Shown here: piece after piece, positions 2,768-59,688 of the stretch
How positions within the stretch are numbered: position 1 is the first letter of the stretch
How the letters are laid out: the number at the start of each line of letters is the position of its first letter
Assembly: GCF_010728325.1 (NCBI RefSeq)
Contig: NZ_AP022571.1
Span: 62,001 to 126,000, forward strand
Origin: Mycolicibacterium poriferae
GTDB taxonomy: Bacteria; Actinomycetota; Actinomycetes; Mycobacteriales; Mycobacteriaceae
Direction: 5' to 3'
Length of the DNA stretch: 64,000 nucleotides
Made by a program: the position numbers and the translations under genes
Notes under the pieces: model-generated
Database searches by the model: none
Told to the model about the DNA's origin: nothing
What the model saw: the letters and a program-made list of their open reading frames with translations, nothing else

Positions 2768-2786
2768 CTACTATGTGGGTACGTAA
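2768..2786 (+). promoter_or_regulatory. BlaI-type operator upstream of L,D-transpeptidase
   Basis: CTACTATGTGGGTACGTAA, a match to the 19-bp inverted repeat that recurs in this window. It ends 31 nt before the ATG of the transpeptidase at 2818. Confidence 0.6.
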
Positions 2787-2817
2787 TAGCAGGAGCGCGA
2801 CCCGACGGATTGTTGTG

Positions 2818-4089
2818 ATGAAAGTGTTGACTGGACGCCGACAAGTAGTAGCGCTGAGCGTGTTTTCGGCTGTCGCGGTGCTCGTGACGGCATCGCAGAC
2901 GAGTGCGGTCAAGTCTCGGCTGTCGAATACGGTGACTGCGCCCGGTGCTGTGGAGGTTGAGCAGACGCCGCAGGCTGCGCCCGAGCCTCCCGCAATCGAG
3001 ATTCTCCCCAGAACAGGCGCGAGCGATGTGGTCCCTGTCGGAGCAGTGAAGGTGACCGCGACTGTTGGGACCCTGACCGATGTGCGTATGCAGAACGAAC
3101 AGGGCAGGGTTGTTGCCGGTCGAATGGTGGGGGGCGGACGCGCCTGGGAGCCCGCCGAGCCACTCGGATACGGACGGTCCTACAGGCTCAGCGCGACGGG
3201 CCGGGGCTCTGACGCCCGCACCGTCACGTCCATTTCGGAGTTTTCTACCGTCGCGCCGCAATCCCAGGTCGGGGTCAGGCTGGGCATGACTAACGGAGCG
3301 TCGCTGGCAGACGGCGGCGTCTACGGTGTCGGAACCGTGATCGTGGCAACCTTCGACGCCGACATCCCGGACCGAGCTGCGGCCGAATCGCGCCTCCAGG
3401 TCAAAACGTCGCCCCAAGTAGCCGGTTCCTGGATGTGGGTCAACGATCGCAAGGCGCACTGGCGGCCCCGTGAATATTTTCCTTCCGGGACCGAGGTCAC
3501 GGTCAAAGCCGATCTCTACGGCACTGATCTGGGTGGTGGGTTATTCGGAGAACAGGACAAGCAAGTCGGTTTCCGGATCGGGCCATCTCGGGTGGCGATC
3601 GCCGATGACACGACCAAACAGGTCAGTGTCTACGAGAACGGCCGTTTGGTCCGCACGATGCCGACATCGATGGGCAGGGGCGGGACGCAGACTGTTGGGG
3701 GCAAGACGATTGCTTTCTGGACACAGCCTGGGGTTTACACGGTGATGGAGAAACAGAATCCGGTCTTGATGGACTCGTCGACCTACGGATTGCCCGTCGA
3801 TTCTGCATCGGGATACAAGATCAGCGTCCCGCACGCAGTGCGGATCAGTCCCGACGGCATCTACCTCCATGACCGCGAAGCGACGGTGTGGGCGCAGGGA
3901 AACACCAACGTTTCGGCGGGCTGTTTAAATCTGAGCGCGGAAAACGCCGAGTGGTACTACGACTTCGCAAATCCGGGCGATGTTGTCGAGGTCCGCAATA
4001 CCGGCGGCGCCCCGCTGGAACAGTGGCAGAACGGAGATTGGTCTGTGCCGTGGGACGAATGGGTGAGTGGCAGCGCGTTGCGTCCTTGA
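2818..4089 (+). CDS. L,D-transpeptidase with altered active-site motif
   Basis: A secreted peptidoglycan cross-linking enzyme of the mycobacterial Ldt type (423 residues; forms 3-3 links between stem peptides outside the membrane). A signal peptide spans about 1-30 (basic start, hydrophobic VVALSVFSAVAVLV). Two Ig-like domains (about 60-270) precede the YkuD catalytic domain (about 280-400), with MDSSTYGLPVD and the LHD motif. The usual SHGC-x-N is here SAGCLN, so the His just before Gly-Cys is replaced by Ala, while the catalytic Cys remains. Activity may be changed. ATG 2818 is chosen because the signal peptide follows it directly; an in-frame start at 2737 would put the operator inside the gene. 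Likely under BlaI control. Confidence 0.9.
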   Translation: MKVLTGRRQVVALSVFSAVAVLVTASQTSAVKSRLSNTVTAPGAVEVEQTPQAAPEPPAIEILPRTGASDVVPVGAVKVTATVGTLTDVRMQNEQGRVVAGRMVGGGRAWEPAEPLGYGRSYRLSATGRGSDARTVTSISEFSTVAPQSQVGVRLGMTNGASLADGGVYGVGTVIVATFDADIPDRAAAESRLQVKTSPQVAGSWMWVNDRKAHWRPREYFPSGTEVTVKADLYGTDLGGGLFGEQDKQVGFRIGPSRVAIADDTTKQVSVYENGRLVRTMPTSMGRGGTQTVGGKTIAFWTQPGVYTVMEKQNPVLMDSSTYGLPVDSASGYKISVPHAVRISPDGIYLHDREATVWAQGNTNVSAGCLNLSAENAEWYYDFANPGDVVEVRNTGGAPLEQWQNGDWSVPWDEWVSGSALRP

Positions 4090-4109
4090 CCAGTGTGTGA
4101 TAAGCCGCA

Positions 4110-4584
4110 CTACGTGCGCCAGTCCGCGCGGTTCAAGCCTGAGGATCGGTGAACGGCTTCAAGCACGGGGCGGATGACAGTTTGACGGCCTGCTGACCCG
4201 GGGAGCGGAGTGTATCTGTGCCAACGGTAGCGGCAGGCTGCGGTGAGGTAGACGGAGCGCAGCAGGTATCGGCGGGCGAAGGCATCGGACTGATGTCGAC
4301 ATAATTACCGCAAAGGTTTTCGAAACGCCCCCGACATCGAGCCCGGCAGTGATTGGTTCCGGGTGTGCTCCGAATCGTGGTGATGAACAACCAGAATCGG
4401 CAAGCACGGGGACGCAACACGGTGGTTAGATCGACCTCTCCAACGCTCCCTCGCCAAAAGGCGATAAGCATGTGTGCATGTCGCCATGAACCCTGATCCG
4501 CGGTGCACTCCGAACGCTTGAGCGGAGTAGGAAGCCAAGCGAGGGACGCTTGAACGTTGAGAAGAGCTATCGTGGTAGAACTAT
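4110..4584. other. Intergenic region, no supported gene
   Basis: Between the transpeptidase and the DsbA-like gene. The reading frames here are short, arginine-rich or Cys/Pro-rich and lack family features. The only site I support is the operator at its right edge. Confidence 0.5.
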
Positions 4585-4603
4585 TTACGTAGATACACCG
4601 TAG
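4585..4603 (+). promoter_or_regulatory. BlaI-type operator upstream of DsbA-like gene
   Basis: TTACGTAGATACACCGTAG, an imperfect copy of the recurrent 19-bp repeat, 46 nt upstream of the GTG at 4650. Confidence 0.55.
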
Positions 4604-4649
4604 ATTGCTCAGGCTCAGAGAGCGCTGCGGAGCGAAAGGAACTCCCGAC

Positions 4650-5315
4650 GTGAATCCAATGACTCGAATTCTGCTGACTGTGTTTGTAGTCATCACTGCG
4701 GTGATCGGCGCCGGTGTGTACTTTTCAAGTCAAGATGGCGGTACAGCAGGAGCGGGTGGAACACAGGGTGACGGCGAAGCCCAGGTGGTGCGCGAGAACA
4801 GTCATCGCCTCAGTTCCCCGCCCGACAGCGATGTGACCTTTGTCGAATTTCTCGATTTCGAATGTGAAGGCTGCGGCGCGGCGTTCCCCGCCGTTGAGCA
4901 GTTGCGCGCACAGTACGGTCAGCAAGTCACCTTCGTCGCCCGCTACTTCCCGATGCCCGGACACTTCAACGGAGAACGAGCGGCACGTGCGGTAGAAGCA
5001 GCAGCGCAGCAAGGCCAGTTCGAACCCATGTACAAGAAGATGTTCGAGACGCAGAGTCAATGGGGCGAACAGCAGGTCCCGGCAGACGAGGTGTTCCGCG
5101 GATACGCAACCGAACTGGGTCTCGACGTAGCTGCGTGGGATGAGGCGTACAACGCTCCGGCCACACTTGAGCGAATCAAGGACGACATCGCCGACGGCAC
5201 CGCCCTCGGCGTGCAGGGCACGCCTACCTTCTTCGTCAACGGGAAGCAGTTAGATATCAAAACTTACGCCGACCTGGGCGCTGCGATACGAAACGCTCTC
5301 GGCCAGCAAAAGTAG
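4650..5315 (+). CDS. DsbA-family thioredoxin-like oxidoreductase, membrane-anchored
   Basis: A 221-residue extracytoplasmic thiol oxidoreductase. An N-terminal membrane anchor or signal (about 4-25) is followed by a Ser/Gly linker and a DsbA-type thioredoxin fold with active-site CEGC (Cys72, Cys75), a helical insertion (about 105-175) and the cis-proline loop GTPTFFVNG. It probably forms or exchanges disulfides in exported proteins. GTG 4650 has GAAAGGA about 10 nt upstream. TTG 4605 is possible but lies right after the operator. Its place beside copper, oxidase and cell-wall genes suggests a role in folding exported enzymes or in oxidase CuA-site redox chemistry; that is inference. Confidence 0.88.
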   Translation: MNPMTRILLTVFVVITAVIGAGVYFSSQDGGTAGAGGTQGDGEAQVVRENSHRLSSPPDSDVTFVEFLDFECEGCGAAFPAVEQLRAQYGQQVTFVARYFPMPGHFNGERAARAVEAAAQQGQFEPMYKKMFETQSQWGEQQVPADEVFRGYATELGLDVAAWDEAYNAPATLERIKDDIADGTALGVQGTPTFFVNGKQLDIKTYADLGAAIRNALGQQK

Positions 5316-6318: not shown

Positions 6319-7443
6319 CTAGTAGCGGCGCACGTTGTAGATCGGCGCCGACGAGATCGGCGCCACTTTCACCGGAGTGCCGTACGTCGAGGCATGCACC
6401 ATGTTCCCATCGCCAATGTAGATGCCCGCGTGCGAGGCGTCCGAGTAGAAAGTGACGATGTCGCCGGGCTGCACTTCGGCCGTCGCCACGGGTTCTCCGC
6501 CCGCCGCCAGCGCCTGACTAGATCGCGGCAGCGACTTGCCGTTCTGCAGGAACGCCCACTTGATGAGCCCCGAGCAGTCGAACGCATCTGGTCCTGTCGC
6601 ACCCCACGAATAGGGCGCACCCACACGGGTCAACGCCGCCTGCACGACCGCTGCCCCACCGGGCGCATTGGACGGACCCGGCCCCGCCGGCGCTATCGCC
6701 TCGGGCAATGCCATGATGGCGGGGTTTGCCGCTGGTGGGGCCGGCGGCGCGGGCGGCACCGGCCCGGGATCGGCGAGCGCCGCACGCTGGTCGGGAGTCA
6801 GTGCGCGGTAGAGCGCCTCTACTTCTGCTATCTGTGTTCGCAGCCGACTCTGCTTGGATTGCAGGCCTGCGCGGACGGCTGATGCCTGCTCCGCGGCGGT
6901 ACGGGCTGCCAGCGCCGATGACTGCGCCGCGCGCGCTGCGTCGTCGGCCCGGGCCGATGCAGCGCGAAAGGCCTTGATGCGGTCCGACATCTGAGCCGCC
7001 ATCACCTTGCTGGCCGAAAGGTCGTCCAGTAGGCGTTGCGGAGACTCCGCGTTCAGCGCCGCGCTGATTGTGCTGGTGGAACCGCCCATGTACGACGCGG
7101 CCGCCACCTGGTTCACGGCGGTCTGATACTCGGCGAGATTGGCCCGCGCCACGGTCATCGCCTCCAGTTCGGAGCGTTGACGATCCTCAGCCGTGCGCTG
7201 CGCCGCTAGTTTCGCCTCGAGGTCTAGTTCGGCCGAATACACGGCCTCTGTGGTCTGCTCGGCCTCGCGAGAGAGCTCCGTCAAGCGGGCCAGGGCATCG
7301 GAAGCCGGATCGGCCCGCCCGATACCCGCCGAATCGCCGAGTGTCAGTGCCAACACTACCGCCACGACGAGAGCACCCGCCGATCGGCATACTGCGGCAG
7401 GGCGGTTCATCCTCAAAACATCAATCCTCACACGCAGGGACAT
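6319..7443 (-). CDS. NlpC/P60 peptidoglycan endopeptidase, RipA-like
   Basis: A secreted D,L-endopeptidase that cuts stem peptides during cell-wall remodelling and division (374 residues from ATG 7443). It has a signal peptide (hydrophobic VVAVVLALTL), a long helical coiled-coil segment rich in Ala/Arg/Glu (about 50-215), a Pro/Ala linker and an NlpC/P60 domain in the last 110 residues. The catalytic Cys sits in DCSGLIKWAF and the His in DASHAGIYIGDG. This is the order of mycobacterial RipA. ATG 7410 (MNRPAAV) is an alternative start. ATG 7443 abuts the operator at 7444-7462, so either the message is nearly leaderless or 7410 is used. Confidence 0.9.
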   Translation of the reverse strand: MSLRVRIDVLRMNRPAAVCRSAGALVVAVVLALTLGDSAGIGRADPASDALARLTELSREAEQTTEAVYSAELDLEAKLAAQRTAEDRQRSELEAMTVARANLAEYQTAVNQVAAASYMGGSTSTISAALNAESPQRLLDDLSASKVMAAQMSDRIKAFRAASARADDAARAAQSSALAARTAAEQASAVRAGLQSKQSRLRTQIAEVEALYRALTPDQRAALADPGPVPPAPPAPPAANPAIMALPEAIAPAGPGPSNAPGGAAVVQAALTRVGAPYSWGATGPDAFDCSGLIKWAFLQNGKSLPRSSQALAAGGEPVATAEVQPGDIVTFYSDASHAGIYIGDGNMVHASTYGTPVKVAPISSAPIYNVRRY

Positions 7444-7462
7444 CTATGGTCTAGCTACGTAG
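7444..7462 (-). promoter_or_regulatory. BlaI-type operator upstream of RipA-like gene
   Basis: On the minus strand CTACGTAGCTAGACCATAG; the CTACGTAG half is perfect. It directly precedes ATG 7443 and lies 33 nt before ATG 7410. Confidence 0.55.
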
Positions 7463-7638: not shown

Positions 7639-7657
7639 CTACTATGTGCAATAGTAG
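7639..7657 (+). promoter_or_regulatory. BlaI-type operator 1 upstream of ctaE
   Basis: CTACTATGTGCAATAGTAG, a perfect 7-bp inverted repeat (CTACTAT/ATAGTAG) with a 5-nt centre, 48 nt before the ctaE start. Confidence 0.7.
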
Positions 7658-7672
7658 GTAGTGACTCAGTAG
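7654..7672 (+). promoter_or_regulatory. BlaI-type operator 2 upstream of ctaE, overlapping
   Basis: GTAGGTAGTGACTCAGTAG, a weaker copy overlapping the first by 4 nt and ending 33 nt before the ctaE ATG. A tandem site would suit cooperative binding. Confidence 0.4.
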
Positions 7673-8649
<977 letters not shown>

Positions 8650-9067
8650 CATGAAGGCGCGTGGATGTTCAGCCGAGCAACAAAATCGTGATGACCGCCA
8701 ACGATGTACGGGCGGCCCTTGTTCGCTCGCGATTTTTCGGCGGAGGGGTGCCCCTATCCTCTGCCTCGGATTGCCGCATGGTCGGTCCGGCTCATCACTG
8801 TCGTCGTCGTCCCGGCATTCGTCGTGAGTGGTTGCGCTAGGCTTCTACGTAGTCTCTACGTAGAAGGCGCCGTGCTGACCGGGCCCCGCCGGCGCCGCAC
8901 GCCCAGTCACGGAGGTCGTCGGGTCGATGCGCAGCATGCTCCGCGCGAGTGGCACTTGGACTGACCCATCGACTCAACGGGGCGCCCGGAGGGTTCCCCC
9001 GAAGCGGCACATGGACATGGGCGCTGAGCGTTGGCGACGGCGGCGATCTCCGATACTTTGGCCACCG
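8650..9067. other. Intergenic region with one operator
   Basis: Between the ctaE operon and the TlpA-like gene. It holds the operator at 8845-8863 and a GGAGG site before ATG 8927, which is in frame with the next gene. I support no separate gene. Confidence 0.5.
8845..8863 (+). promoter_or_regulatory. BlaI-type operator, perfect palindrome, upstream of TlpA-like gene
   Basis: CTACGTAGTCTCTACGTAG: two perfect CTACGTAG blocks separated by TCT, extended on both sides by TT/AA. It lies 64 nt before ATG 8927. Confidence 0.75.
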
Positions 9068-9688
9068 ATGATACGGCGTTGCACCGCGGCGGGCCTGAGC
9101 GCGTTGCTGCTGGGTGTCGCAGTGTCAGGATGCTCCAGCGGAGACGACGCCGTCGCGCAGGGTGGCACGTTCGAGTTCGTGTCGCCAGGGGGGCAGGTCG
9201 ACATCTTCTACGATCCACCTTTGAGTCGTGGTCGACCGGGGCCGATACGCGGACCCGACCTTATGGACCCCAACCGCACGTTGTCACTCGATGACTTCGC
9301 CGAGCAGGTGGTGGTGATCAACGTGTGGGGTCAGTGGTGTGGTCCCTGTCGGACCGAGATGCCCGAATTGCAAAGGGTGTACGACGCGACCCGAAACGAG
9401 GGGGTCGCCTTCCTTGGTATCGACGTCCGCGACAACAACCGCCAAGCTGCGGTCGACTTCATCGTCGATCGCAAGGTCACCTTCCCATCGATATACGACC
9501 CACCGATGCGCACGATGATCGCCTTGGGCGCGAAGTATCCCACTACCGTGATCCCGTCCACCATCGTCTTGGACCGGTCGCATCGCGTTGCCGCGGTGTT
9601 CCTGCGGGCGCTGCTCGCCGAGGACCTCGAACCGGTGGTCCGTCGCCTCGCCGCCGAGACCGCATCCGGCTCAGGACCCCCGCGGTGA
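9068..9688 (+). CDS. TlpA/ResA-like thioredoxin lipoprotein
   Basis: A 206-residue exported thiol-disulfide reductant. The lipoprotein signal (LLLGVAVSGC, Cys22) is followed by a thioredoxin fold with active site WCGPC (Cys91, Cys94), a central DVRDNNRQAAVDFI region and the cis-proline PSTIVLD. Such proteins reduce apocytochrome c or the CuA cysteines of cytochrome oxidase. ATG 9068 gives a clean signal peptide but has no clear ribosome site. ATG 8927 in the same frame has GGAGG 11 nt upstream and would add a 47-residue basic leader; the start is therefore open. It is followed by CtaG. Confidence 0.85.
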   Translation: MIRRCTAAGLSALLLGVAVSGCSSGDDAVAQGGTFEFVSPGGQVDIFYDPPLSRGRPGPIRGPDLMDPNRTLSLDDFAEQVVVINVWGQWCGPCRTEMPELQRVYDATRNEGVAFLGIDVRDNNRQAAVDFIVDRKVTFPSIYDPPMRTMIALGAKYPTTVIPSTIVLDRSHRVAAVFLRALLAEDLEPVVRRLAAETASGSGPPR

Positions 9689-9758: not shown

Positions 9759-10754
9759 ATGGTGGGCGGAACCGTGATCGGTCAGGTAGTGCTCCCCACC
9801 TCACCGCCTACGATTTGGGCGATGCTCGGTTGGTTACCGCCACCGGTTCCGTTACTGCCCGTATTGGCAATGGTATTGGCGGTGTGGTACGTGCTCGCCG
9901 TTCGAGTCGTCAGATCGCGAGGCCGCCAGTGGGCGTGGACGCGGACGGCGAGCTTCCTGGGAGGGTGTATCGCCTTGGCGGCGGTGACGGGCCTGGCCAT
10001 CGACGGCTATGGCTACCGTTTGTTCAGTGCCTTCATGTTTCAGCACCTGACGCTGTCGATCCTCGTTCCGCCTCTGCTGGTTCTGGGTGCGCCTGGCCGG
10101 TTGCTACTCAGGTCCACACCCCACAGTGGCCTCGGACGTTACGTCGTGATGTCCGCGCTGGCTGGACTTCGGTGCCGGGCGAGCAGGATCGTGTTGCACC
10201 CCGGCTTCACTATTCCGGTTTTCCTCTTGAGCTACTACGGCCTGTACCTCTCCGACCTATTCGATGCGGCGGCGGCCAGCGTGGCCGGACACGTAGCCCT
10301 GCAGGTGTTCTTCCTCGTCAGCGGCCTGTTGTTCATCCTGCCGATACTGTCGACCGGTCCCTTGCCGGTCCGGCAAAGCAACCTGGGCCGCTTCTTCGAC
10401 ATCTTCGTCGAAATGCCACTGCACGTGTTCATCGGTGTCATTCTGATGATGGCACCGCGGACGCTCACTGAGACCTTTGCCAATCCTCCACCGGACTGGA
10501 ACGTCGACCCCGTCGCCGACCAGGCGGTGGCCGGCGCGTTGGCGTGGTCTTATGGCGAGCCCGTCGCTTTGCTGACCACAGTGATCTTCGCCATCCGCTG
10601 GCGCCGTGACGAGGAGTCGGAGACGGCGAAAAGGGAGGCCGACGTCGAACGCGAGGATGCGGAACTTGCTGCCTACAACGCGTTTCTGCGCGGATTGCAC
10701 CAACAGCCGCGACGGCCTACCGACCTGCCGAGCACCGCCGACAAGGATGACTGA
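9759..10754 (+). CDS. ctaG: Cytochrome c oxidase assembly protein, caa3 CtaG family
   Basis: A 331-residue polytopic membrane protein of the CtaG (caa3 oxidase assembly) family, with about seven helices. Diagnostic parts are the MFQHLTLSILVPPLLVLGAP region, HPGFTIPVFLLSYYGLYLSDLFD, and HVFIGVILM with its conserved His residues. It acts in oxidase or copper-centre assembly in the membrane. ATG 9759 is preferred (GTG 9774 is possible). The charged C-terminal tail (EESETAKREADVEREDAEL) is cytoplasmic. It lies 70 nt after the TlpA-like gene, probably in one transcript with it. A second CtaG domain is fused to CopD at 27252. Confidence 0.9.
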   Translation: MVGGTVIGQVVLPTSPPTIWAMLGWLPPPVPLLPVLAMVLAVWYVLAVRVVRSRGRQWAWTRTASFLGGCIALAAVTGLAIDGYGYRLFSAFMFQHLTLSILVPPLLVLGAPGRLLLRSTPHSGLGRYVVMSALAGLRCRASRIVLHPGFTIPVFLLSYYGLYLSDLFDAAAASVAGHVALQVFFLVSGLLFILPILSTGPLPVRQSNLGRFFDIFVEMPLHVFIGVILMMAPRTLTETFANPPPDWNVDPVADQAVAGALAWSYGEPVALLTTVIFAIRWRRDEESETAKREADVEREDAELAAYNAFLRGLHQQPRRPTDLPSTADKDD

Positions 10755-11184: not shown

Positions 11185-11203
11185 ATACGTAGTGACATAG
11201 TAG
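11185..11203 (+). promoter_or_regulatory. BlaI-type operator upstream of a 67-residue protein
   Basis: ATACGTAGTGACATAGTAG, a good match to the 19-bp repeat, ending only 9 nt before the GTG at 11213. Confidence 0.65.
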
Positions 11204-11528: not shown

Positions 11529-12473
11529 TTACGCGAAGCAGATCAGTACGCCCGTCAGGGACAGAGTGACGATCGCGAACGGTGTGGCGGCCATCGCCGC
11601 TACGGCTCCGCTGAGCGCGACTTGGGTCTGGATGCGGGCGAACCGTCGCGGTGGCTTCGATAACCGTTCGGCACGGGTGAGTACGGCGATACCGGCGGCG
11701 GCCAGACCGTGAGCCGGGGTGGTGGCGCCTGACAGGGTCAACAGGCCCGCGAGCAGGGGCTGACGGCCGTGGCGACGAGCGGCCGCATCGTCGGCGCACA
11801 TCTCCAACAGAGAATTGATGTGCGTGGCTGCGCCCGAGAACAGCCTGCAGGTGGGCAGCACAGCAGTCAGGCAGCGCGCCGCGGCGATGGCGTAGGCGTG
11901 ACGGCCGTCGAGGTGAGCACGTTCGTGGGCGACGACAGCTGCAAGTTGGTTCCCATCGAGTGCGGCCAGAGCTGCGGTGGTCACCACAATCGCCGGTGGG
12001 CGGCCCGCCACACAATACGCCGCAGGCTCCGATGCCTCGATGACCACGACGTCGCTGCCGTACGACCTGCCAACCAGGCGCACGGCGTCGGCATGGGCGA
12101 AAGTGTGGGAGCGCATGCGGCCCAGAGCGCGGCCTATTCGTATGACTATGGCGATCAAACTTCCGACGGCGAAAGCCACCGCGATGGTCGCCACGATTCG
12201 TGCCGGCAACCCGCCGTGGCCGAGGAGAATGGCGCGGAGACGTTCCAGGCAAGAGACGATCAGCGCGTCGGGGCTGTCCCAGTGTCCAGCGGCCTCGATG
12301 AGGAGCAGCGCGACGGCGGCAACCGAGCAGCCGAGCACCGCTACCACAGCGGTGGCCCACGCGGCTATCGCCAGGCGCGGAGCCTCGCCGTCGGCGGTGA
12401 TGTGGACCAGAAGTTTCGGTGCGATCGTCAGTACCGCCGCGACGTACAGCAGCAAAGCCGCTGCGACGGTCAT
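11529..12473 (-). CDS. BlaR-like M56 membrane zinc protease (sensorless)
   Basis: A 314-residue membrane metallopeptidase of the M56/BlaR1 type. It has three or four hydrophobic helices (about 1-22, 38-60, 92-115 and a C-terminal one), a zinc motif HERAH (about 183-187) and a third-ligand region SLLEMCADDAAAR (Glu near 224). In BlaR1 proteins this domain inactivates the partner repressor. Here the extracellular penicillin-binding domain is absent, as in the mycobacterial Rv1845c type, so the signal is unknown. Its start overlaps the end of the blaI gene by 4 nt, so the two are co-translated. A paralogue lies at 56296. Confidence 0.88.
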   Translation of the reverse strand: MTVAAALLLYVAAVLTIAPKLLVHITADGEAPRLAIAAWATAVVAVLGCSVAAVALLLIEAAGHWDSPDALIVSCLERLRAILLGHGGLPARIVATIAVAFAVGSLIAIVIRIGRALGRMRSHTFAHADAVRLVGRSYGSDVVVIEASEPAAYCVAGRPPAIVVTTAALAALDGNQLAAVVAHERAHLDGRHAYAIAAARCLTAVLPTCRLFSGAATHINSLLEMCADDAAARRHGRQPLLAGLLTLSGATTPAHGLAAAGIAVLTRAERLSKPPRRFARIQTQVALSGAVAAMAATPFAIVTLSLTGVLICFA

Positions 12474-12856
12474 CGGCGGCCTGACTTGCGGGCCAGGCGC
12501 CGCAGCGCAGCGCGCAAGTCAGCGGATTCCTCCGGATCGATTTGCGCCACGAAATGACTCAGGACCGCCTCGGATCGACCGCCGCCGCTCAGAGCCTCCA
12601 GCATGAGTCGTGCACTGTGCTCCTCGCGCGTCAGGGTGGGGCGGTAGCGGTATGCCTTGCCGTCGCGTTCACGCGACAGCCAACCCTTGCCGTGCAAGTT
12701 GTCCATCGTCGACATGACCGTGGTGTAGGCGATATGCCGTTCGGTGCTCAACTCATCAAAGATCTCCCTGACTGTGGTGTCGCTGTCGGGATCACGATTC
12801 CAGAGGCGATCCATGATCGATGCCTCGAGTTCTCCGAAGCCACGCACCCGAGCCAT
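12470..12856 (-). CDS. BlaI/MecI/CopY-family transcriptional repressor
   Basis: A 128-residue winged-helix repressor. The N-terminal DNA-binding domain includes VREIFDELSTERHIAYTTV with the recognition helix TTVMSTMDNLHGKGWL, then the wing DGKAYRYRPTLTREEHSA. The C-terminal helices (about 80-128) form the dimer and hold the region cut by the M56 protease in related systems. ATG 12856 has AGGAGG about 8 nt upstream; an in-frame reading from 12967 lacks one. Two candidate operators lie upstream (12880-12892, 12972-12990), consistent with self-repression. I propose that it and its paralogue at 55934 read the recurrent CTACGTAG sites. Confidence 0.92.
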   Translation of the reverse strand: MARVRGFGELEASIMDRLWNRDPDSDTTVREIFDELSTERHIAYTTVMSTMDNLHGKGWLSRERDGKAYRYRPTLTREEHSARLMLEALSGGGRSEAVLSHFVAQIDPEESADLRAALRRLARKSGRR

Positions 12857-12971: not shown

Positions 12972-12990
12972 TTACTGAGAAAGTCAGTAG
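12972..12990 (-). promoter_or_regulatory. Degenerate BlaI-type operator upstream of blaI
   Basis: TTACTGAGAAAGTCAGTAG. Its right half GTCAGTAG equals that of the ctaD operator. It lies 116 nt before blaI. Confidence 0.4.
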
Positions 12991-14251: not shown

Positions 14252-14621
14252 CGACTTCCGACGAATGTCGCCACGCGACAGAGCGCGTCACTAAAAGCGT
14301 TGAGGTCCAATCGGTTCGGTCACGACATGCGCAAGGTCGCAAACGGTCTCCCCGACTCGGTACCTACGTAGTAGATGCGGAGTCGGGACGATTGCCCAGG
14401 ATGGAGGCGTCGTTCGACGATCCACCTCGAACCAGCTCCCGCTGTCGCTAGGCCTTGCAACGCCGCCGCGCCGAAGGTCGGCCCGATGCGCCAGGGCCGC
14501 AGCGGGTGCGAGTGCTCTGCACCCGCCCCGGCGGGGCACCCGTCACCGGGCGATGCGGCGCACTTCTGGGCCCGGAACTTCGCAGCTACGCGAGTAGTCC
14601 TAAACACCACCGTAGAGTAAC
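14252..14621. other. Divergent intergenic region between M23 peptidase and ctaD
   Basis: It contains the partial operator at 14364-14376, set within an inverted repeat CCGACTC...GAGTCGG (about 14352-14386). No supported gene. Confidence 0.5.
14364..14376. promoter_or_regulatory. Partial BlaI-type operator between M23 peptidase and ctaD
   Basis: CTACGTAGTAGAT: one perfect CTACGTAG followed by a shortened second half. It could serve either of the divergent genes. Confidence 0.45.
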
Positions 14622-14640
14622 CTACGTAACTAGTCAGTAG
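14622..14640 (+). promoter_or_regulatory. BlaI-type operator upstream of ctaD
   Basis: CTACGTAACTAGTCAGTAG, followed by AT as at the other sites; 40 nt before ATG 14681. Confidence 0.6.
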
Positions 14641-14644: not shown

Positions 14645-16426
<1,782 letters not shown>

Positions 16427-26268: not shown

Positions 26269-26287
26269 CTACGTAGTTTCATAGTAG
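26269..26287. promoter_or_regulatory. BlaI-type operator shared by L,D-transpeptidase and ccdA
   Basis: CTACGTAGTTTCATAGTAG, followed by ATG. It lies 29 nt from the transpeptidase start and 79 nt from the ccdA start, so one dimer could control both divergent promoters. Confidence 0.75.
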
Positions 26288-29406: not shown

Positions 29407-29425
29407 GTACGGAGGTGGATAGTAG
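29407..29425 (+). promoter_or_regulatory. Degenerate BlaI-type operator upstream of beta-lactamase-like gene
   Basis: GTACGGAGGTGGATAGTAG keeps TACG, AG and ATAGTAG of the consensus at the right spacing, 63 nt before GTG 29489. Confidence 0.4.
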
Positions 29426-52505: not shown

Positions 52506-52522
52506 GACTCCTCCTCGGTGGT

Positions 52523-52608: not shown

Positions 52609-53291
52609 TCAGCTGCATAACCGGGCACCACTGACTGCGTCGAACGTCATTGCGCCGTCTGTGCTTCGGAGGAGCCCTTGGCGTGTGGTCGCGAGGATCT
52701 CGTCGGCGTCCGCGGGTGATACTGCTAGGTCAGAGGCGGGGATTTCTGCTCGCCGCTGCCAGGACTGCTCATCGAGGCTGACCACCACAGCGCCCGACTG
52801 GCTGTCGTGACCGTAGACCCGGCTGTGGCGGTACTCGAGTGCGTGAAAATCGGCGCTGCCGTGCAGCGACAGGGATTCCCAGGATTGGCCGGCGTCGCTG
52901 CTCTTGATCAGGCCCAGGTGTGGCAGTTGTTGACGGTGCCGGATCAGGGTGACCGCTGGCCAAGAATTCGTCAGGCCCGGCGATGGTGAAGCCCATGAAG
53001 TCCTGGGCGAGACCGCCGACTCGTTGTGGCGCCCGATGGGGCTCTACTGTGTAGAGGCCCGTAATGAGTAGCTACATAGAGGGTTTCGTCGGACGGGTTG
53101 ATGCCGAGACCGTGGATGTGCACCATGCCCGGCACTATCGCGGGCGGCGCACTGTCGGGGGCGTTCGACGAACACGCCGCGACGAGGGCTCCGGTCAGAA
53201 TTGCGGCAACGAATCTGCGGAGCTGAACGGTGAAACCTTCCGGTCGCGGACTATCTACGTAGTGCAATAGTAGATGGGCGGCACAGGGCAA
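52609..53291 (-). pseudogene. Broken glycosylhydrolase-like (F510_1955-type, sialidase-fold) lipoprotein gene
   Basis: The start reads as a lipoprotein (FVAAILTGALVAACSS), then VHIHGLGINPSDETLYVATHYG, the opening beta-propeller blade of this family. The frame then shifts near 53054-53060 to LYTVEPHRAPQRVGGLAQDF, then FMGFTIAGPDEFLASGHPDP, and again near 52935-52942 to LPHLGLIKSSDAGQSWESL, then FHALEYRHSRVYGHDSQSGAVVV, up to a stop at 52609. Family members are about 300 residues, so the end is also lost. A BlaI-type operator overlaps the apparent start. Function of intact members is not firmly known. Confidence 0.7.
53255..53273. promoter_or_regulatory. BlaI-type operator before the broken glycosylhydrolase-like gene
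   Basis: CTACGTAGTGCAATAGTAG, followed by ATG, close to the consensus. Confidence 0.65.
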
Positions 53292-53352
53292 CGGCGCGAC
53301 GCTGGTATGACGCCCTGGGCAGGGCTGCGCGTACCGACAGGACAGTGAGGAT

Positions 53353-53370
53353 TCTTCATCAAGTCTTCAT
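53353..53370 (+). promoter_or_regulatory. Response-regulator direct repeat before DUF305 remnant
   Basis: TCTTCAT-CAAG-TCTTCAT: two identical heptamers 11 bp apart, 107 nt before ATG 53477. Confidence 0.65.
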
Positions 53371-53476
53371 CGGGACACGAACCGACCCATACTCGGAATC
53401 TTGAGGCTGGACCGAGGCGGCGAGAGCGCCTCCCGCGTGGCCTGGTGTCACGAAGTTGTATGGACAAGGATGCGCG

Positions 53477-53665
53477 ATGCAGCACAAGCGATGTGGAACT
53501 GGGTTTGCGGCGTTGGCGGCGTCGGCCCTGTTCATCACTGCCTGTTCGAATGCGACAACAGACTCTCAGTCATCGCCGAGCGCTGCGAGCAGCGACGCGG
53601 CCCACAACGACGCTGATGTGACCATCGACGCCGGCCACGACCGCCTCGAACTGCTCGCGTTCTAA
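53477..53665 (+). pseudogene. DUF305 lipoprotein remnant fused to antisense regulator fragment
   Basis: From ATG 53477 the product starts like the intact DUF305 protein at 44403: basic signal, lipobox ITAC, Ser-rich linker and AAHNDAD. After about residue 50 it runs into DNA that is the reverse of a response-regulator N-terminus and stops. The two DUF305 repeats and all His/Met motifs are missing. A deletion joining DUF305 to the regulator would explain it. Confidence 0.75.
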
Positions 53666-54103: not shown

Positions 54104-54144
54104 CTGGTCTGCGACGCGGCCGAGGTAGCGCTCGCCGCGAGGTG

Positions 54145-55554
54145 TCAGTATTCGATCAAGCGCGTGACGTAGGGCGTCATCCCGGAGCTGCGTACGGGTG
54201 AGATTTTGACTACTGACCCGGTGTAGGGGGCTTCGAGCATCATGCCGTCGCCGAGGTACATGGCTTCGTGCTGGCTGGCGTTGGGGCCGTAGAAGATGAG
54301 ATCGCCGCGCTGCATCTGCGATGACGGCACTTTGCGGCCGGCGTTGTACTGAGACCCGGAGTAGTGGTCGAGTTTGATGCCCACGCCTGCGAAGGCGTAG
54401 AGCATGAGGCCAGAGCAGTCGAAGCCGACGGTGTTGGCTCCCTGATCGATTCCCCGAGAGGGCCCGTTGGCGTTGCCGCCGCCCCAGGAGTAGGGAACGC
54501 CGAGTTGCGACATGGCTCGTCGGATCACGAATTCAGAGGCTTGACGGCCGTACAGGCGGGGAATGCGTCCGTTGGTGATGCCGGGATCTGCGGCGGCGGT
54601 CGCGGGGGAGAGGATGCCGAGTTTGACGAGGAAGTTTCGGCCCATGTCGGCGGTGAGTTGCAGCGAGGTCGCCATGATTTTGAGGACGGCGTTGATGATG
54701 GCTATCGGGTCGCCGGCCACATTGGCGCTGGGCACCATCGGCAGCGTGGTGTCCCACTGGCCGGCGCGCGAGCTGTCGGCCGGTGCCGGACTGGAGCGGT
54801 CCCATTGGCCGCTCGGCGGCACTGCGGCGCCGGGTTGCGCGGCCGTGGGCTGGTGTGCGGTAGCTGCTACCGGTCGGGCAGTAGTCAGTCGGGTTTGTGC
54901 GGAGTCGCGTTCGGCGGCCAACCGGGTGAGGTCGGACTGTTGATCGGTGAATGCGCGTTGCGCGGCAACGAGTTCGGTGACTGCGGCGTCCTGTCGCCGT
55001 TGCGCTTCGGCCGCTGCGGCGTCGGCGTCCAGGCGGGCTTGCTTGGCGGCTGAGAGTCGGTTGGCGCGTTCGGTCTGGCTTCGGCGGAGATCGTCTTTGA
55101 CCCTTCCGAAGGCAAGGAGATGGGTCTGCTGCGTCGAGGCTGCCGAGAGGATGTCTTCAGGGCTGCTTGCCAGCGGCAGTGAGCGGGAGGGACCGTTCAT
55201 GTAGGTCGAGGCGGCGAACTCGTCGAAACGCTGCTGCGTGGCGTCGATGGCGGTTTGGCTGTCGGCGAGTGCTTTCTCGCTGTCGGCGAGTGTGCGGTGC
55301 GCCTCGGTGACCGCCTCGCGGGCGGTGGCAAGCTCAACCAGGGCCCGATTGACGCTCTCCTGCTGGTGTTGGATGTCCGCGCCGATATCGGCGACTTGCT
55401 GGTTGGCTTCGGCGACGGCGGCGACAAGTCCTGCGACCGTTTCGCTGTCACCATCAGGTTCGCTTCCGTGGCCGGCCATTGCGATGCCGGAGGTGTGAAG
55501 CACCAGCACCGCAAAAATCACCCCGGTGGTGAGAAGTGAAGTGAGGCGCCGCAT
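54145..55554 (-). CDS. NlpC/P60 peptidoglycan endopeptidase, coiled-coil type
   Basis: A 469-residue secreted peptidase. Signal peptide (about 1-28), long coiled coil (about 40-230, with SEKALADSQTAIDATQQRFDEF, RRQDAAVTELVAAQRAF), Pro/Ala linker, a helical stretch about 265-310 (AIINAVLKIMATSLQLTADMGRNFLVKLGI) and the NlpC/P60 domain (about 335-469) with DCSGLMLYAF and QHEAMYLGDG. The latter part, including the MGRNFL segment, is like the shorter protein at 58400. ATG 55554 has AGGAG about 7 nt upstream. A BlaI-type site lies 94 nt upstream. Confidence 0.9.
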   Translation of the reverse strand: MRRLTSLLTTGVIFAVLVLHTSGIAMAGHGSEPDGDSETVAGLVAAVAEANQQVADIGADIQHQQESVNRALVELATAREAVTEAHRTLADSEKALADSQTAIDATQQRFDEFAASTYMNGPSRSLPLASSPEDILSAASTQQTHLLAFGRVKDDLRRSQTERANRLSAAKQARLDADAAAAEAQRRQDAAVTELVAAQRAFTDQQSDLTRLAAERDSAQTRLTTARPVAATAHQPTAAQPGAAVPPSGQWDRSSPAPADSSRAGQWDTTLPMVPSANVAGDPIAIINAVLKIMATSLQLTADMGRNFLVKLGILSPATAAADPGITNGRIPRLYGRQASEFVIRRAMSQLGVPYSWGGGNANGPSRGIDQGANTVGFDCSGLMLYAFAGVGIKLDHYSGSQYNAGRKVPSSQMQRGDLIFYGPNASQHEAMYLGDGMMLEAPYTGSVVKISPVRSSGMTPYVTRLIEY

Positions 55555-55647
55555 CAATTCTCCTGAGTGGGGCGGCTGCCGGGTGGCCGCGAGTCGGACG
55601 GGGCAGTGCGCCGAGGTGTCATGTGCAACGGCCTATGAGCGCTGTAA

Positions 55648-55666
55648 CTACGTAGTTTCTTAGTAT
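55648..55666. promoter_or_regulatory. BlaI-type operator between NlpC/P60 gene and second blaI
   Basis: CTACGTAGTTTCTTAGTAT, 94 nt from the peptidase start and 268 nt from blaI. Confidence 0.6.
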
Positions 55667-55933
55667 GTATTTGGAACGTACATCACTGCAGCATCAGGAG
55701 AAACGCCTGTCACAGTCTCAACTCGGTAACACCTGACCGGCCGGCAAAATCTGCTGTTGGCCCGAGGTGCCGGTGCCTTGGATCCGATTCAATGGCGCGC
55801 GCCGGGGCGCGATCGGTTGCGCATCACGGCGAGGTCCCCGGCATATGGGCTGTCGGCGGCTAGATTAGGACGCTGCAGGGTGCCGCGCTGTGCGCATCGG
55901 CCACCTCGTCAGAGCGAGCAGGAGTTGCGGCGG

Positions 55934-56299
55934 ATGGAACAGCGAGGATTCGGCGATCTCGAAGCGGTGGTCATGGACTGGGTGTGGGATCACCAGGAAC
56001 CGGTCACCGTGCGCGACGTGTTCGAGGACCTGTCTGAGCAGCGGCCCATCGCGTACACCACCGTGTTGTCGACCATGGACAACCTGTATCGCAAGCGGTG
56101 GCTCAAACGGCAGCGAAACGGCAAGGCCTATATGTACCGGGCGGCGATGAGTCGTGAGGAGCGGTCAGCGCGGCTGATGAAAGCTGCCTTTGACTCCGGC
56201 GGCGACACCAACACCGTGCTGGCATTCTTTGTCGAGCAGATGAGTACAGAGCAATCAACGCAACTCAAGGCGGCGCTGCGTAAGGGGCGGCGATCATGA
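55934..56299 (+). CDS. BlaI/MecI/CopY-family repressor (second copy)
   Basis: A 121-residue winged-helix repressor. The recognition helix TTVLSTMDNLYRKRWL differs little from that of the 12470 gene (TTVMSTMDNLHGKGWL), so both should read the same operator. Wing NGKAYMYRAAMSREERSA and C-terminal dimer helices follow. ATG 55934 has AGGAG 7 nt upstream; the longer frame from 55757 lacks similarity. Its end overlaps the M56 gene by ATGA. Together with that gene it is the second repressor-protease pair. Confidence 0.92.
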   Translation: MEQRGFGDLEAVVMDWVWDHQEPVTVRDVFEDLSEQRPIAYTTVLSTMDNLYRKRWLKRQRNGKAYMYRAAMSREERSARLMKAAFDSGGDTNTVLAFFVEQMSTEQSTQLKAALRKGRRS

Positions 56300-57216
56300 C
56301 GACGGCTCTGTGGCTGGTGCTCTACGGCGCGGTGTTGGCGTGGCTTGCTCCACCGGTACTGCGGCGCCTTACTGGTGGCGGGGTCAGCCCGTCCATGGGT
56401 GTGGCCGCCTGGCTGGCCACGGTGGCCGCCGTGCTTGCGGCATGGCTGGCGGCAGTGGTACTCGCGGTCGACGCGACGTCAAACAGCATCCTCGACGGCT
56501 CGGTCGTGACCCTCTGCCTGGAACTGTTCGGGTTCTCCGATCACACCCCGCTGGCGGGACGCCTCGGCTCTATTGCGCTCATCGGCGGGGGGCTATTGAC
56601 CTCGGCGGTTGTGGCGCTGCGACTGGGACGCTGCCTGGCCAGGCTTCGCACTCGAAGTCACGAGCACGCACACGCCGCGCGGATCGTCGGTCGGCCCACC
56701 GACCATCCCCACGTCGTTGTCGTCGAGGCGGACCTTCCCGCCGCTTACTGTGTCATCGGCCGCCCCCATGCCATCGTCGTGACCTCGGCGGCCGTGAAAT
56801 CGTTGAACCGAGCGCAACTGAAAGCGGTTCTGGCCCACGAGGATGCTCACCTAACAGGGCATCATCACCACATCCTCATGGTGCTGCGTGCCCTCGCAGC
56901 CACCCTTCCTCACCTGCCCTTGTTCGCCTGCGCGCATCAGGCTGTGGCGGAACTGCTGGAGATGTGCGCCGACGATACCGCCGCTCGTCGCGTCGGCACT
57001 CGTCCTCTACTGGCGGGGTTGCTCGCGCTGGCCGGTCACCGACCTCCGGTGGCCGAAGGTCTGGCCGCGGCGGCAACGGCGGTCATCACCCGCGCCGAGC
57101 GACTGGTCACCCCGACGCGTCGGCACGTGCAGTGGCGTCATCGCGCTGTCCTGGTTGCCGCCATCGCCACGATGCTCGCCACACCGGCATTCATCCAGGT
57201 GCTCTGTCACCACTAG
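56296..57216 (+). CDS. BlaR-like M56 membrane zinc protease (second copy)
   Basis: A 306-residue membrane metallopeptidase. Helices at about 1-22, 35-58 and 90-112, zinc motif HEDAH (181-185) followed by LTGHHHH, and the LLEMCADDTAAR region with the third ligand. The C-terminal helix ends the protein; no penicillin-binding domain is present. Partner of the preceding repressor by 4-nt overlap. The run HHHH after the zinc motif is absent in the other copy and could tune metal response. Confidence 0.88.
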   Translation: MTTALWLVLYGAVLAWLAPPVLRRLTGGGVSPSMGVAAWLATVAAVLAAWLAAVVLAVDATSNSILDGSVVTLCLELFGFSDHTPLAGRLGSIALIGGGLLTSAVVALRLGRCLARLRTRSHEHAHAARIVGRPTDHPHVVVVEADLPAAYCVIGRPHAIVVTSAAVKSLNRAQLKAVLAHEDAHLTGHHHHILMVLRALAATLPHLPLFACAHQAVAELLEMCADDTAARRVGTRPLLAGLLALAGHRPPVAEGLAAAATAVITRAERLVTPTRRHVQWRHRAVLVAAIATMLATPAFIQVLCHH

Positions 57217-57342: not shown

Positions 57343-57372
57343 CCGTAGATCATCTACGGAGTCAAACCGTAG
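57343..57372. promoter_or_regulatory. Two overlapping BlaI-type palindromes
   Basis: CCGTAGATCATCTACGG (57343-57359), a perfect palindrome, overlaps CTACGGAGTCAAACCGTAG (57354-57372), an operator with G for T in both halves. Confidence 0.55.
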
Positions 57373-57498: not shown

Positions 57499-57521
57499 AT
57501 CTACGTAGTAACTACGTAGAT
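57499..57521. promoter_or_regulatory. Best BlaI-type operator, 23-bp perfect palindrome
   Basis: Centre CTACGTAGTAACTACGTAG (57501-57519), extended by AT on each side to a perfect 23-bp palindrome with one central base. It is the best site in the window and defines the consensus. Confidence 0.8.
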
Positions 57522-57667
57522 TGAGGTAGACTATCTCGCGAGGGCGGCGCAGGATGCATGGGCGTGCTCGAGTTTTCGTGAACGGCTAGGAGGATGCCAC
57601 GACGATCGAGTCGCACCGTGTTGTCGCCGGTTCCGTACCGCCAGCGGCGGCCGCCGGCCGCATCCGC

Positions 57668-58336
57668 GTGCTCCTCGTTGAGCCTCGACGCATCTATGCG
57701 GCCACCGTAGCGCGACACCTTCGTGCCGACGATTTCGCGGTGGAGGTGGCGTACTCGCCCCGTGCCGCGAGCATAGGTCTGCACGAGGGCGATCCCGATG
57801 TGGTCGTGGTGTGCGTCGGCACTCAGGGGCTGGGCACGGCCCTGCTTGACCGCATCCGTCAGGAGACGCAGGTCGGCGTGGTCGCTCTCAGCGACGGCGA
57901 TATTACGCCGCTGCTCGTGAGTACCGCGGCCGTCTGCGGGGGCGACATCGAGGCGCTGAACGTGCGAATTCGGCTGGCGCTGAGGCGCTGCGGTGTCGGC
58001 GGCGAACCACGTGGCGGCGACTACGGCGACGAGATGCATCGCCGTGCATTCGGGGATCTCCGTATCGATGTGGCCGCACGCCGGGTGTCTCTGCGCGGCG
58101 AGGCACTGTCACTTACCCGCACGGAGTTCGAGATCTTGTGCACGCTGGCGGAGAGTCCGGGTGAACCGGTGACGTGTCGTCAACTGCAGCTGAGCCTGTG
58201 GGGGGATGCCTCCGACGGTGGCCGGTCCACGCTGGGGGTGCACGTGGGCAATCTTCGGCGCAAGCTGGGTGAGGACCCACGCTCGCCGCGCTATCTGCGT
58301 ACGGTGCGCGGTACCGGTTACTGTCTGACCGGCTGA
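57668..58336 (+). CDS. Atypical response-regulator-like winged-helix protein
   Basis: A 222-residue protein. The receiver-like part (about 1-110) keeps the fold (RIYAATVARHLRADDFAVEVAYSP, DPDVVVVCVGTQGLG) but lacks the acidic pair and the phospho-Asp, which is Cys/Val here. The OmpR-type DNA-binding domain (about 125-220) is intact: LTRTEFEILCTLAESPG, HVGNLRRKLGEDP, RGTGYCLTG. So it probably works without phosphorylation. GTG 57668 is the first in-frame start but lacks a ribosome site; in-frame codons continue upstream to an AGGAGG at 57588, followed by an ACG in frame. No kinase is adjacent. Confidence 0.75.
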   Translation: MLLVEPRRIYAATVARHLRADDFAVEVAYSPRAASIGLHEGDPDVVVVCVGTQGLGTALLDRIRQETQVGVVALSDGDITPLLVSTAAVCGGDIEALNVRIRLALRRCGVGGEPRGGDYGDEMHRRAFGDLRIDVAARRVSLRGEALSLTRTEFEILCTLAESPGEPVTCRQLQLSLWGDASDGGRSTLGVHVGNLRRKLGEDPRSPRYLRTVRGTGYCLTG

Positions 58337-58399
58337 GTGGGTGCAGCGAGTGCCGGCTGCGGCGCAGTGATGAAGGCGGTGACAGATTGCGGCGAAGGC

Positions 58400-59170
58400 T
58401 TAGCTTTCGATGATGCGAACGACGTAGGGCGTCATCCCTGACAGCCGCACCGGGGAGATCTTGATGGGCACGCCGGTCTGCTGCGCCTCGAGCATCTGCC
58501 CGCCGCCGAGATAGATGGCTTCGTGCTGGCTCCCGCCCGGGCCCCAGAACAGCAGATCGCCCCGCTTTGCTTGCGAGGGTGGGACCTTGCGACCGGCGTT
58601 GTACTGGTCACCGGACCATCGCGGGAGCAGCACTCCCACGCCGGCGAAGGCGAACCGGGTCAGGCCTGAACAGTCAAAGCCCACAGTGCCGGCCCCCTGG
58701 TCGACGCCGCGGCTGGGACCGGTGAGGCTTCCGCCACCCCACGAGTAGGGAACGCCGATCTGCGTTCCCGCCCTGCGAATCACGTACTCGATCGCTTGCG
58801 CACCATTGATCCGGTTTCCGCGCACGCTGGTCGACGGATTAGCGGCCGGACTGACAATTCCCAGGCTGCTGAGAAAGTTGCGACCCATACTCATGGCCGT
58901 CTGCGTCGCCATGGCCGTGGCCTGAAGAGAGGCGTTCGCGATGGCAACCGGATCACCGGGAGCGCCTGCGCTCGCCACCTTCGGCAGCAGGGGATCCCAC
59001 GGACCGGCAGCAGGTTGGGCCGACGCGACCGGTGCACACGCGACGAAGAGCAGCACGACGATGCTGATGACACCGGGGAGCCGCCGAACGCGTCTCGCAC
59101 CGCGCATCGCCGGGTCAGACCGGTCGGAGACGGCAATTGCCGCACTCCTGCTCCGGACGTCTGATTCCAT
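58400..59170 (-). CDS. NlpC/P60 peptidoglycan endopeptidase, short form
   Basis: A 256-residue secreted peptidase without coiled coil. Signal peptide with VISIVVLLFVACAPVASA (about 35-53), a helical segment like that of the 54145 protein (MGRNFLSSLGIVSP), then the NlpC/P60 domain with DCSGLTRFAF and QHEAIYLGGG. Catalytic Cys and His are present. ATG 59170 has GAGGAG about 6 nt upstream; 59215 is an alternative. A near-perfect operator lies 87 nt upstream. The two similar peptidases flank the second BlaI-M56 pair. Confidence 0.9.
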   Translation of the reverse strand: MESDVRSRSAAIAVSDRSDPAMRGARRVRRLPGVISIVVLLFVACAPVASAQPAAGPWDPLLPKVASAGAPGDPVAIANASLQATAMATQTAMSMGRNFLSSLGIVSPAANPSTSVRGNRINGAQAIEYVIRRAGTQIGVPYSWGGGSLTGPSRGVDQGAGTVGFDCSGLTRFAFAGVGVLLPRWSGDQYNAGRKVPPSQAKRGDLLFWGPGGSQHEAIYLGGGQMLEAQQTGVPIKISPVRLSGMTPYVVRIIES

Positions 59171-59688
59171 GTCTTCTCCTCGGTGCGCCGCGCGGTGTCC
59201 TACTTCGTTCACCAATAGCGGGGCTGAAAAAACGCATACGTACGGCGCAACACCAAAATACGTAGCTCCTACGTAGAAAAGCGTAACTCACAAAAGCCCC
59301 ACCAGTAACAGTAGCCACATAATTACAATGGTGAAATTCGCTGCGACAGGGTGTCTTCAATGCGGCAAGCACTGGTCTAGATTCGTTTCCGGGCGGGAAG
59401 ACGCGCGTGAATGGTGCGCGGATTAACTAACTGCAATGTGCGAGCTTCTCGGAAAGGAACTCTATAGGCCGTCCGGGGTGAGCAAAATTCTGCCCCGAGC
59501 GCTACATGAAGCCCCGTCGGCGGTAGCTGATCGCCATCGGTCATCGGGAGTCGATGGCCCCAGCGACGGCGGCAACCGCCCGTAAGGCAGGATCGTCCAA
59601 GGAGTGAACCGAATGTGCTGCGGGGAAACGGGTTTCAGCGATGCCGCGCGCCGCGCCATGTCGGCGCGGTGTCAAGAACTTCCGTCGC
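59171..59688. other. Intergenic region with one operator
   Basis: About 518 nt between the NlpC/P60 gene and the broken transpeptidase. No supported gene apart from the operator. Confidence 0.5.
59258..59276 (-). promoter_or_regulatory. BlaI-type operator upstream of short NlpC/P60 gene
   Basis: On the minus strand CTACGTAGGAGCTACGTAT, almost perfect palindrome, 87 nt before ATG 59170. Confidence 0.75.

Follow-up and report, generated by a model that had tools for sequence, protein, structure and literature searches.

The window analysed here comprises 64,000 nucleotides of Mycolicibacterium poriferae (assembly GCF_010728325.1, contig NZ_AP022571.1, positions 62,001-126,000 of the forward strand). 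It contains two genes for BlaI-type repressors, each next to a gene for an M56/BlaR1-like membrane protease, and a 19-bp inverted repeat that lies before genes for cell wall enzymes, thiol proteins and cytochrome oxidase subunits. The assembly (genome G000) consists of two contigs, the 216,341-bp contig that holds the window (C2), which was taken to be a plasmid, and the chromosome (C1, 5,712,830 bp). Similar DNA is found on four Mycolicibacterium plasmids, of which those of M. vanbaalenii JOB5, M. gilvum Spyr1 (pMSPYR101) and M. rufum were compared; the fourth, in M. chubuense NBB4, matches only 10% of a 10-kb query. There are four BlaI genes in the genome: two in the window, one in a chromosomal island (L012), and one resembling the structure 2g9w, which we take to be M. 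tuberculosis BlaI (Rv1846c). The island holds diverged copies (56-94% protein identity) of window genes, including those for an L,D-transpeptidase (LDT), RipB, a response regulator, M56, BlaI and RipA, and two-component genes like the pair at 45-47 kb of the window.

The best form of the inverted repeat is CTACGTAGTAACTACGTAG, and its dyad arms are CTAC/GTAG. An iterated, palindromic matrix of 27 columns, trained on C2 and L012 only, finds 28 sites in these sequences: 19 in the window (15.6-38.2 bits), seven in L012 and two elsewhere on C2, a strong site at 129,377 (30.5 bits) and a noise-level site at 196,215 (13.6 bits). The original prediction for this DNA described about 18 repeats of this kind; the 19 window sites, none of which falls inside a called gene, run from 2768-2786 to 59258-59276, at the positions originally given, and bear it out. 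The reversed sequence of C2 and L012 gave maxima of 16.1, 13.5 and 11.9 bits, so the site at 14364-14382 (15.6 bits) is not above noise, and the weakest window sites (centres 14373, 12981, 55646 and 29416) lean on their position more than on their score.

At the left end of the window the first candidate operator (2768-2786, 21.1 bits) precedes an LDT gene with Big_10 and YkuD domains (2818-4089, + strand, by Pfam) and the second (4585-4603, 30.2 bits) a DsbA-like thioredoxin gene (4659-5315, +, Pfam Thioredoxin_4/DSBA). The genes that follow form what we call module A. It starts with a RipC-type NlpC/P60 hydrolase (6319-7410, -, NF038345 at 547 bits, cut-off 425) with a candidate operator at 7444-7462 (23.3 bits). 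Two further candidate operators, 15 bp apart (7639-7672, 23.5 and 19.0 bits) and conserved in seven aligned ctaE promoters, precede the gene for cytochrome c oxidase subunit III (ctaE, 7706-8299, +, Pfam COX3). The candidate operator at 8845-8863 (29.0 bits) precedes a TlpA/ResA-like thiol-disulfide oxidoreductase gene (9068-9688, +); the site is 214 bp from the called start, and a longer frame begins at 8927, so the true start may be nearer the operator. A CtaG-type oxidase assembly protein (9759-10754, +, Pfam Caa3_CtaG) comes next. The site at 11185-11203 (29.1 bits) lies before an unnamed small frame, with no called target, and is identical or nearly so in loci L097, L100, L120 and L121. 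The module A M56 protease (11529-12473, -, Pfam M48) has a Cys74-equivalent and a C-terminal cysteine, and is encoded next to the module A BlaI (12470-12856, -), which has a weak candidate operator before it (12972-12990, 17.4 bits). The doubtful site at 14364-14382 precedes an M23 peptidase gene (13145-14170, -, by Pfam), and a candidate operator at 14622-14640 (27.1 bits), conserved in seven aligned ctaD promoters, precedes the gene for an aa3-type cytochrome oxidase subunit I (ctaD, 14681-16426, +, NF050116 at 1013 bits, cut-off 880).

The matrix finds no site of at least 13 bits at 14.7-26.2 kb or at 29.5-53.2 kb of the window, in keeping with the original remark on the P1B-4/cyclase, ArsR and copper blocks, in which no repeat had been seen. 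Between these stretches a candidate operator (26269-26287, 26.7 bits) lies between divergent genes for an LDT (25283-26239, -, by Pfam) and a CcdA/DsbD-type membrane protein (26367-27149, +, Pfam DsbD_TM), and a weak one (29407-29425, 18.7 bits) precedes a beta-lactamase-like gene (29489-30280) with a weak match to PF13354. The strong site at 53255-53273 (29.8 bits), also present in L019 and L020, has no called target within 350 bp. Only a 62-amino-acid lipoprotein-like frame, at 53477, follows it (stretch 53255-53665); the gene here looks truncated, because on the related plasmid L019 this site is followed by a DUF305 gene.

Module B, towards the right end of the window, consists of genes for RipA, BlaI, M56, a regulator, RipB and an LDT. 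An overlapping array of three candidate operators (55637-55681; 17.8, 27.4 and 20.7 bits, the first at 55637-55655) lies between the gene for a RipA-type NlpC/P60 endopeptidase (54145-55554, -, NF033741 at 763 bits, cut-off 625) and that for the module B BlaI (55934-56299, +), which is followed by its M56 partner (56296-57216, +). The candidate operator at 57354-57372 (30.7 bits) is followed by an lpqS-like gene in relatives (L012 and others); no lpqS-like open frame was seen between the window M56 and the regulator gene, where the operator is still in place. The best candidate operator (57501-57519, 38.2 bits) lies before a response-regulator-like gene (57668-58336, +) with a Trans_reg_C match and a receiver match below cut-off. 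The last (59258-59276, 28.3 bits) precedes the gene for a RipB-type NlpC/P60 endopeptidase (58400-59170, -, NF033742 at 371 bits, cut-off 335). The LDT at 59689-60911 (-) is split into two frames, a catalytic part (59689-60246) and an Ig-like part (60306-60911); it is one annotated gene in the three compared plasmids and looks broken or mis-sequenced here. The identities that the original prediction gave to the genes downstream of the repeats are borne out by Pfam and NCBIfam.

The repeat is strongly enriched in this DNA. The window contains 10 copies of the pattern CTACGTAG where 0.23 would be expected, and none of 100 shuffles reached 10. Genome-wide the pattern occurs 28 times, ten in the window, once elsewhere on C2, four times in L012 and at 13 other places, 12 of which stay under 4 bits when scored with the final matrix; the remaining one, L011 (C1:5,079,184), scores 20.5 bits. 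The gene that follows this lone chromosomal site codes for a membrane protein that has a tail rich in His and is similar by eye, at its N-terminus, to another operator target (L104:12743-13513). With at most one mismatch, TCTACKNWNNNNNWNMGTAGA has 12 sites in the genome (seven in the window, one on the rest of C2, four in L012 and none on the rest of the chromosome); with at most two mismatches it has 35, as many as the backward-read control, and chance matches swamp the signal. Neighbouring sites within 60 bp of each other favour a 15-bp step (19 of 33 pairs from the window, L012 and 40 regions of other genomes), an example being the array before the module B blaI gene.

The sites are placed as operators would be. 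None of 165 falls within a called gene at a distance of over 60 bp from either end, against 5682 of 8400 random positions; this count omits some tandem neighbours, the full set being 170 sites in 42 stretches (the window, L012 and the 40 regions). These numbers and the confinement of sites with at most one mismatch to the window, C2 and L012 leave the predicted operator role standing after a count inside genes and over the rest of the genome. The median distance from site centre to gene start is 100 bp, with a lower quartile of 59 bp (219 site-gene pairs). Conservation is higher in the operator than in the remainder of the promoter for ctaD (0.85 v 0.57, seven rows), ctaE (0.87 v 0.54, seven rows) and CcdA (0.98 v 0.64, three rows). 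Separate -10 boxes downstream of the operators were considered and rejected, TANNNT being frequent only within the operator arms (31% at -8 and 30% at +7, 118 flanks).

The sites are associated with BlaI in other genomes as well. The 19-mer CTACGTAGNNNCTACGTAG is present in 20 of 198 genomes of the genus and its backward control in one. All 20 carry a strong island-type BlaI, found in 38 genomes at E<=1e-44 and in 83 at E<=1e-30 (Fisher p 3e-17 and 6e-9, respectively; the stricter cut was picked after seeing the data). Genome G096 has 16 BlaI matches, the most among the genomes searched. Of 26 19-mers, 22 have a listed BlaI match no more than 5 kb away. The other four precede an LDT gene (L099 and L041), a DsbA-like gene (L111) and a response-regulator gene (L050); L099 and L111 have no BlaI within their 20 kb, and L041 has BlaI-like fragments at its edge. 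The frozen matrix finds 146 sites in the 40 regions of other genomes, 38 of them chosen by BlaI and two (L099 and L111) by the 19-mer, with at least one site in each; some of these regions are near-duplicates (for example L120/L121 and L094-L096). In 20 regions drawn at random from these genomes, without matching for plasmids or islands, it finds none, and a scan of all 60 sequences in reverse yields a single site. Sites are present in all 25 regions whose best local BlaI is less than 75% identical to the window's, one of which, L085, abuts a closer BlaI in L086. A family-wide scan found the 19-mer in two of 151 genomes, both in the genus; the 141 genomes that represent 30 other genera have none. 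The chromosomal Rv1846c-type promoter was considered as the source of the motif, but in the one 15-kb region scanned, that of the fourth, 2g9w-like BlaI, there is no site of at least 8 bits.

The original prediction of a BlaI-type regulon is thus upheld in so far as the repeats behave as operators would, being tied to BlaI elsewhere, outside genes and mostly more conserved than their surroundings. It also spoke of one mobile regulon joining wall and oxidase genes. The joining holds, but there are two separable BlaI/M56 modules with nearly the same operator. Module A occurs by itself in L097, L100, L120 and L121 and module B in L082, L089, L091 and L094-L096; L096 (B) and L097 (A) are in one genome with more than 1.3 Mb between them. 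Module B is also present in the pMSPYR101 stretch, and in genome G034 the two modules lie side by side (L091 and L092). The operators of the two modules are similar in make-up, which makes cross-talk between them likely in M. poriferae.

Both window BlaI proteins belong to the BlaI/MecI/CopY superfamily (PF03965, Penicillinase_R), with 85.6 bits for module A and 90.3 bits for module B against a cut-off of 22.6. CopY-style copper sensing by BlaI itself was rejected, since a C-terminal Cys-X-Cys is present in none of 50 BlaI proteins (42 have no cysteine at all), the module B protein scores 36.2 bits against TIGR02698 (CopY), below the cut-off of 121.95, and the CopY-type core TACANNTGTA has no match in the window.

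The M56 partner fits a membrane zinc protease of the BlaR1 fold with an HExxH motif. No C-terminal penicillin-binding sensor was found on it, the longest of 45 aligned proteins having 315 amino acids. It has two conserved cysteines, one between helices 2 and 3, in the loop that joins them, and a second at the C-terminus, often as Cys-His-His; by analogy with BlaR1 both should face outward from the membrane. Cys74 and Cys304 are invariant in 92 of 92 near homologues. In the 45 aligned proteins, 44 from module loci and one chromosomal Rv1845c-type protein that has neither cysteine, Cys74 is present in 38 and Cys304 in 40. A plain Foldseek comparison with the PDB gave no match below E 0.001, and VIA-align was a second look at the same candidates.

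The targets were labelled over the 170 sites, a second gene being counted if its start was within 150 bp. NlpC/P60 genes are the targets of 44 sites in 21 loci, LDT genes of 22 in 19, LpqS-like genes of 11 in 11 (in 10 genomes), response regulators of 10 in 9, and DsbA-like, ctaE and ctaD genes of nine in seven each. Fewer sites precede genes for a BNR-repeat protein, TlpA and BlaI (six each), CcdA (three), DUF305, CopC, P1B-ATPase and DUF1775 (two each), and CcsA and a beta-lactamase-like protein (one each); 25 unlabelled genes occur once each. With a looser 400-bp rule DUF305 is a target in seven loci. The LpqS family was named from NCBIfam: one member (L095) matches NF052429 (putative copper homeostasis) at 132 bits, cut-off 35, and the others were assigned by similarity to it; Pfam gave nothing useful for the family even at E 10. 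The LpqS-family target, the absence of a penicillin sensor from M56 and its conserved cysteines were missed in the original prediction.

Several targets are extra copies of genes that the chromosome has for itself. The genome has four copies of ctaD, and the three on the chromosome are 89-96% identical to that of the window; a RipA/RipB-like pair lies at 3.19 Mb of the chromosome. The alternative oxidase that had been proposed is therefore not borne out, subunit I being a further copy of the aa3 type. LDT and NlpC/P60 enzymes have a catalytic cysteine, DsbA, TlpA and CcdA have thiol sites, and the oxidase contains copper, and on this family knowledge the targets make up a coherent copper-vulnerable set. 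In several bacteria L,D-transpeptidases are reported to be inhibited by copper (PMC11390936). Copper- or metal-type genes are present in 27 of 38 BlaI regions and in none of 20 controls, which speaks for copper as the signal, as does the recurrence of an LpqS-family gene as a target.

We consider that the repeats are probably (at roughly 70%) operators of the resident BlaI-type repressors, which control an envelope set released through M56 under copper or thiol stress. From the computed sites, neighbouring genes, BlaI linkage and cysteine conservation we infer binding, repression, proteolysis and a signal in the following form. A BlaI dimer would bind the CTAC/GTAG-armed dyad near the start of a target gene and repress it. 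At the M56 cysteine pair a signal from the envelope would be read, and it would activate the protease, which would inactivate BlaI; this signal is most likely copper or thiol stress, with copper as the leading guess. Loss of BlaI would then allow expression of extra RipA/B/C-type NlpC/P60 enzymes, LDTs, DsbA, TlpA, CcdA and aa3 subunits, together with LpqS in relatives, as a spare set for the envelope enzymes that depend on cysteine or copper and that copper would poison. In its most specific form, to which we give a little less than even odds, the proposal is that a BlaR1-like protease has lost the penicillin sensor and gained in its place two extracytoplasmic cysteines, by which it detects copper or disulfide stress, and that through BlaI it releases a mobile spare set of copper-vulnerable enzymes (LDTs, NlpC/P60 enzymes, Dsb-type thiol proteins and aa3 oxidase).

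A number of findings weigh against this reading. The count of BlaI regions with copper- or metal-type genes includes P1B-ATPases, which possibly are not for copper. Leaving lpqS aside, only about eight of 170 sites have a copper-type gene as their target, and the window copper block has no operator, so the copper genes may be no more than passengers of the modules. Sites also occur away from BlaI loci, as the 20.5-bit score of chromosomal L011 shows, and 17 of 170 have no called target within 350 bp. The TlpA promoters are less convincing than the others (0.64 v 0.47), with the site in two of seven rows of the 220-bp stretch, and the unmatched random regions temper the linkage to BlaI. In the predicted M56 model segments 70-79 and 81-85 have a predicted local distance difference test (pLDDT) score below 50, and the model consequently gives no support for a contact between Cys74 and Cys304. 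Finally, L102, L105 and L106 show, among the families sought, little beyond BlaI, M56 and LDT, which suits a beta-lactam response equally well.

Such a response is the alternative that survives best: the same BlaI operators would serve a signal of beta-lactam or wall damage, the modules would be inducible LDT and hydrolase sets, and the copper genes would be fellow-travellers on the plasmid. After BlaI and M56 themselves, an LDT is what the regions contain most often (30 of 38), some modules are little more than these three, and a beta-lactamase-like gene is present in five of the 38 regions. M. tuberculosis BlaI is described as repressing blaC, and amoxicillin-clavulanate as raising blaR-blaI expression (PMC5473688). 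We regard this explanation as rather unlikely all the same, because the protease is too short to hold a penicillin-binding domain, an LpqS-family gene recurs as a target, metal-type genes accompany most of the BlaI regions, and oxidase subunits are not obvious beta-lactam responders.

Binding of the sites by the response-regulator-like proteins (57668-58336 and 46320-47060) in place of BlaI is very improbable. The best site does precede such a gene, and response-regulator genes are targets at ten sites in nine loci, but a similar regulator is present in only 18 of the 38 site-bearing BlaI regions (missing from 20), and the sites are long dyads whereas direct repeats are the usual targets of OmpR-type proteins. 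That the repeats are a mobile palindromic element, or resemble terminators, and do not regulate anything is hardly credible, for although the sites are short, palindromic and repeated on a plasmid-like contig, they lie outside genes and near starts, are conserved in orthologous ctaD, ctaE and CcdA promoters and are associated with BlaI in other genomes.

The operator reading has its nearest relative in the BlaI-BlaR pair of M. tuberculosis (Rv1846c-Rv1845c). The BlaI fold is shared (2g9w, E 2.5e-17), and both systems have a short M56 protease without a penicillin sensor. In M. tuberculosis blaC is repressed by BlaI, which reportedly also binds ATP-synthase and cytochrome bd genes, a respiratory link as seen here, and the targets named in the parts of these papers drawn on include no Rip or LDT genes (PMC5473688, PMC12565901, PMC5874750). 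PMC5473688 describes mycobacterial BlaR as having no drug-sensing domain and regards the way in which M. tuberculosis nonetheless responds to beta-lactams as unknown. Given this background, neither the linking of resistance, wall or division genes with respiration by BlaI nor a sensor-less BlaR is new. The chromosomal BlaI of M. poriferae that resembles 2g9w by eye is, however, less than 40% identical to those of the window, and its M56 partner lacks both cysteines present in the window M56 proteins.

In contrast to BlaR1-BlaI and MecR1-MecI of S. aureus, there is no penicillin-binding sensor and no TACANNTGTA core in the window, and sites lie before many separate genes. The CopY/CopR copper repressors of Firmicutes share the superfamily and a copper context, but are set apart by the lack here of the Cys-X-Cys, of a TIGR02698 match above cut-off and of TACANNTGTA. 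The lpqS gene is a member of the RicR copper regulon of M. tuberculosis according to PMC10961391, whereas the lpqS-family genes found here carry a BlaI-type site. Among the literature matches listed, no title or abstract concerned a plasmid BlaI regulon with Rip, LDT and oxidase targets, or BlaI-M56 copper control in mycobacteria. The operator and its genus-wide linkage to BlaI, the Rip, LDT, thiol, oxidase and LpqS targets, the plasmid and island modules and the cysteine pair were likewise not found among those matches, the motif of Sala 2009 lying outside this comparison.

The recurring pairing of operator and BlaI in the genus, often beside copper-resistance genes, suggests from the sequences a shared envelope-stress response. 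If the proposed spare-set mechanism is true, tolerance would come from replacement of poisoned targets, beside the efflux genes on the same plasmid, through modules that have multiplied in many mycobacteria. A BlaI/M56 group with a recognisable operator in dozens of loci, recurring targets and two conserved cysteines offers a testable answer to how sensor-less BlaR proteins signal, and the circuit may join copper stress, 3,3-cross-linking, wall hydrolysis and respiration.

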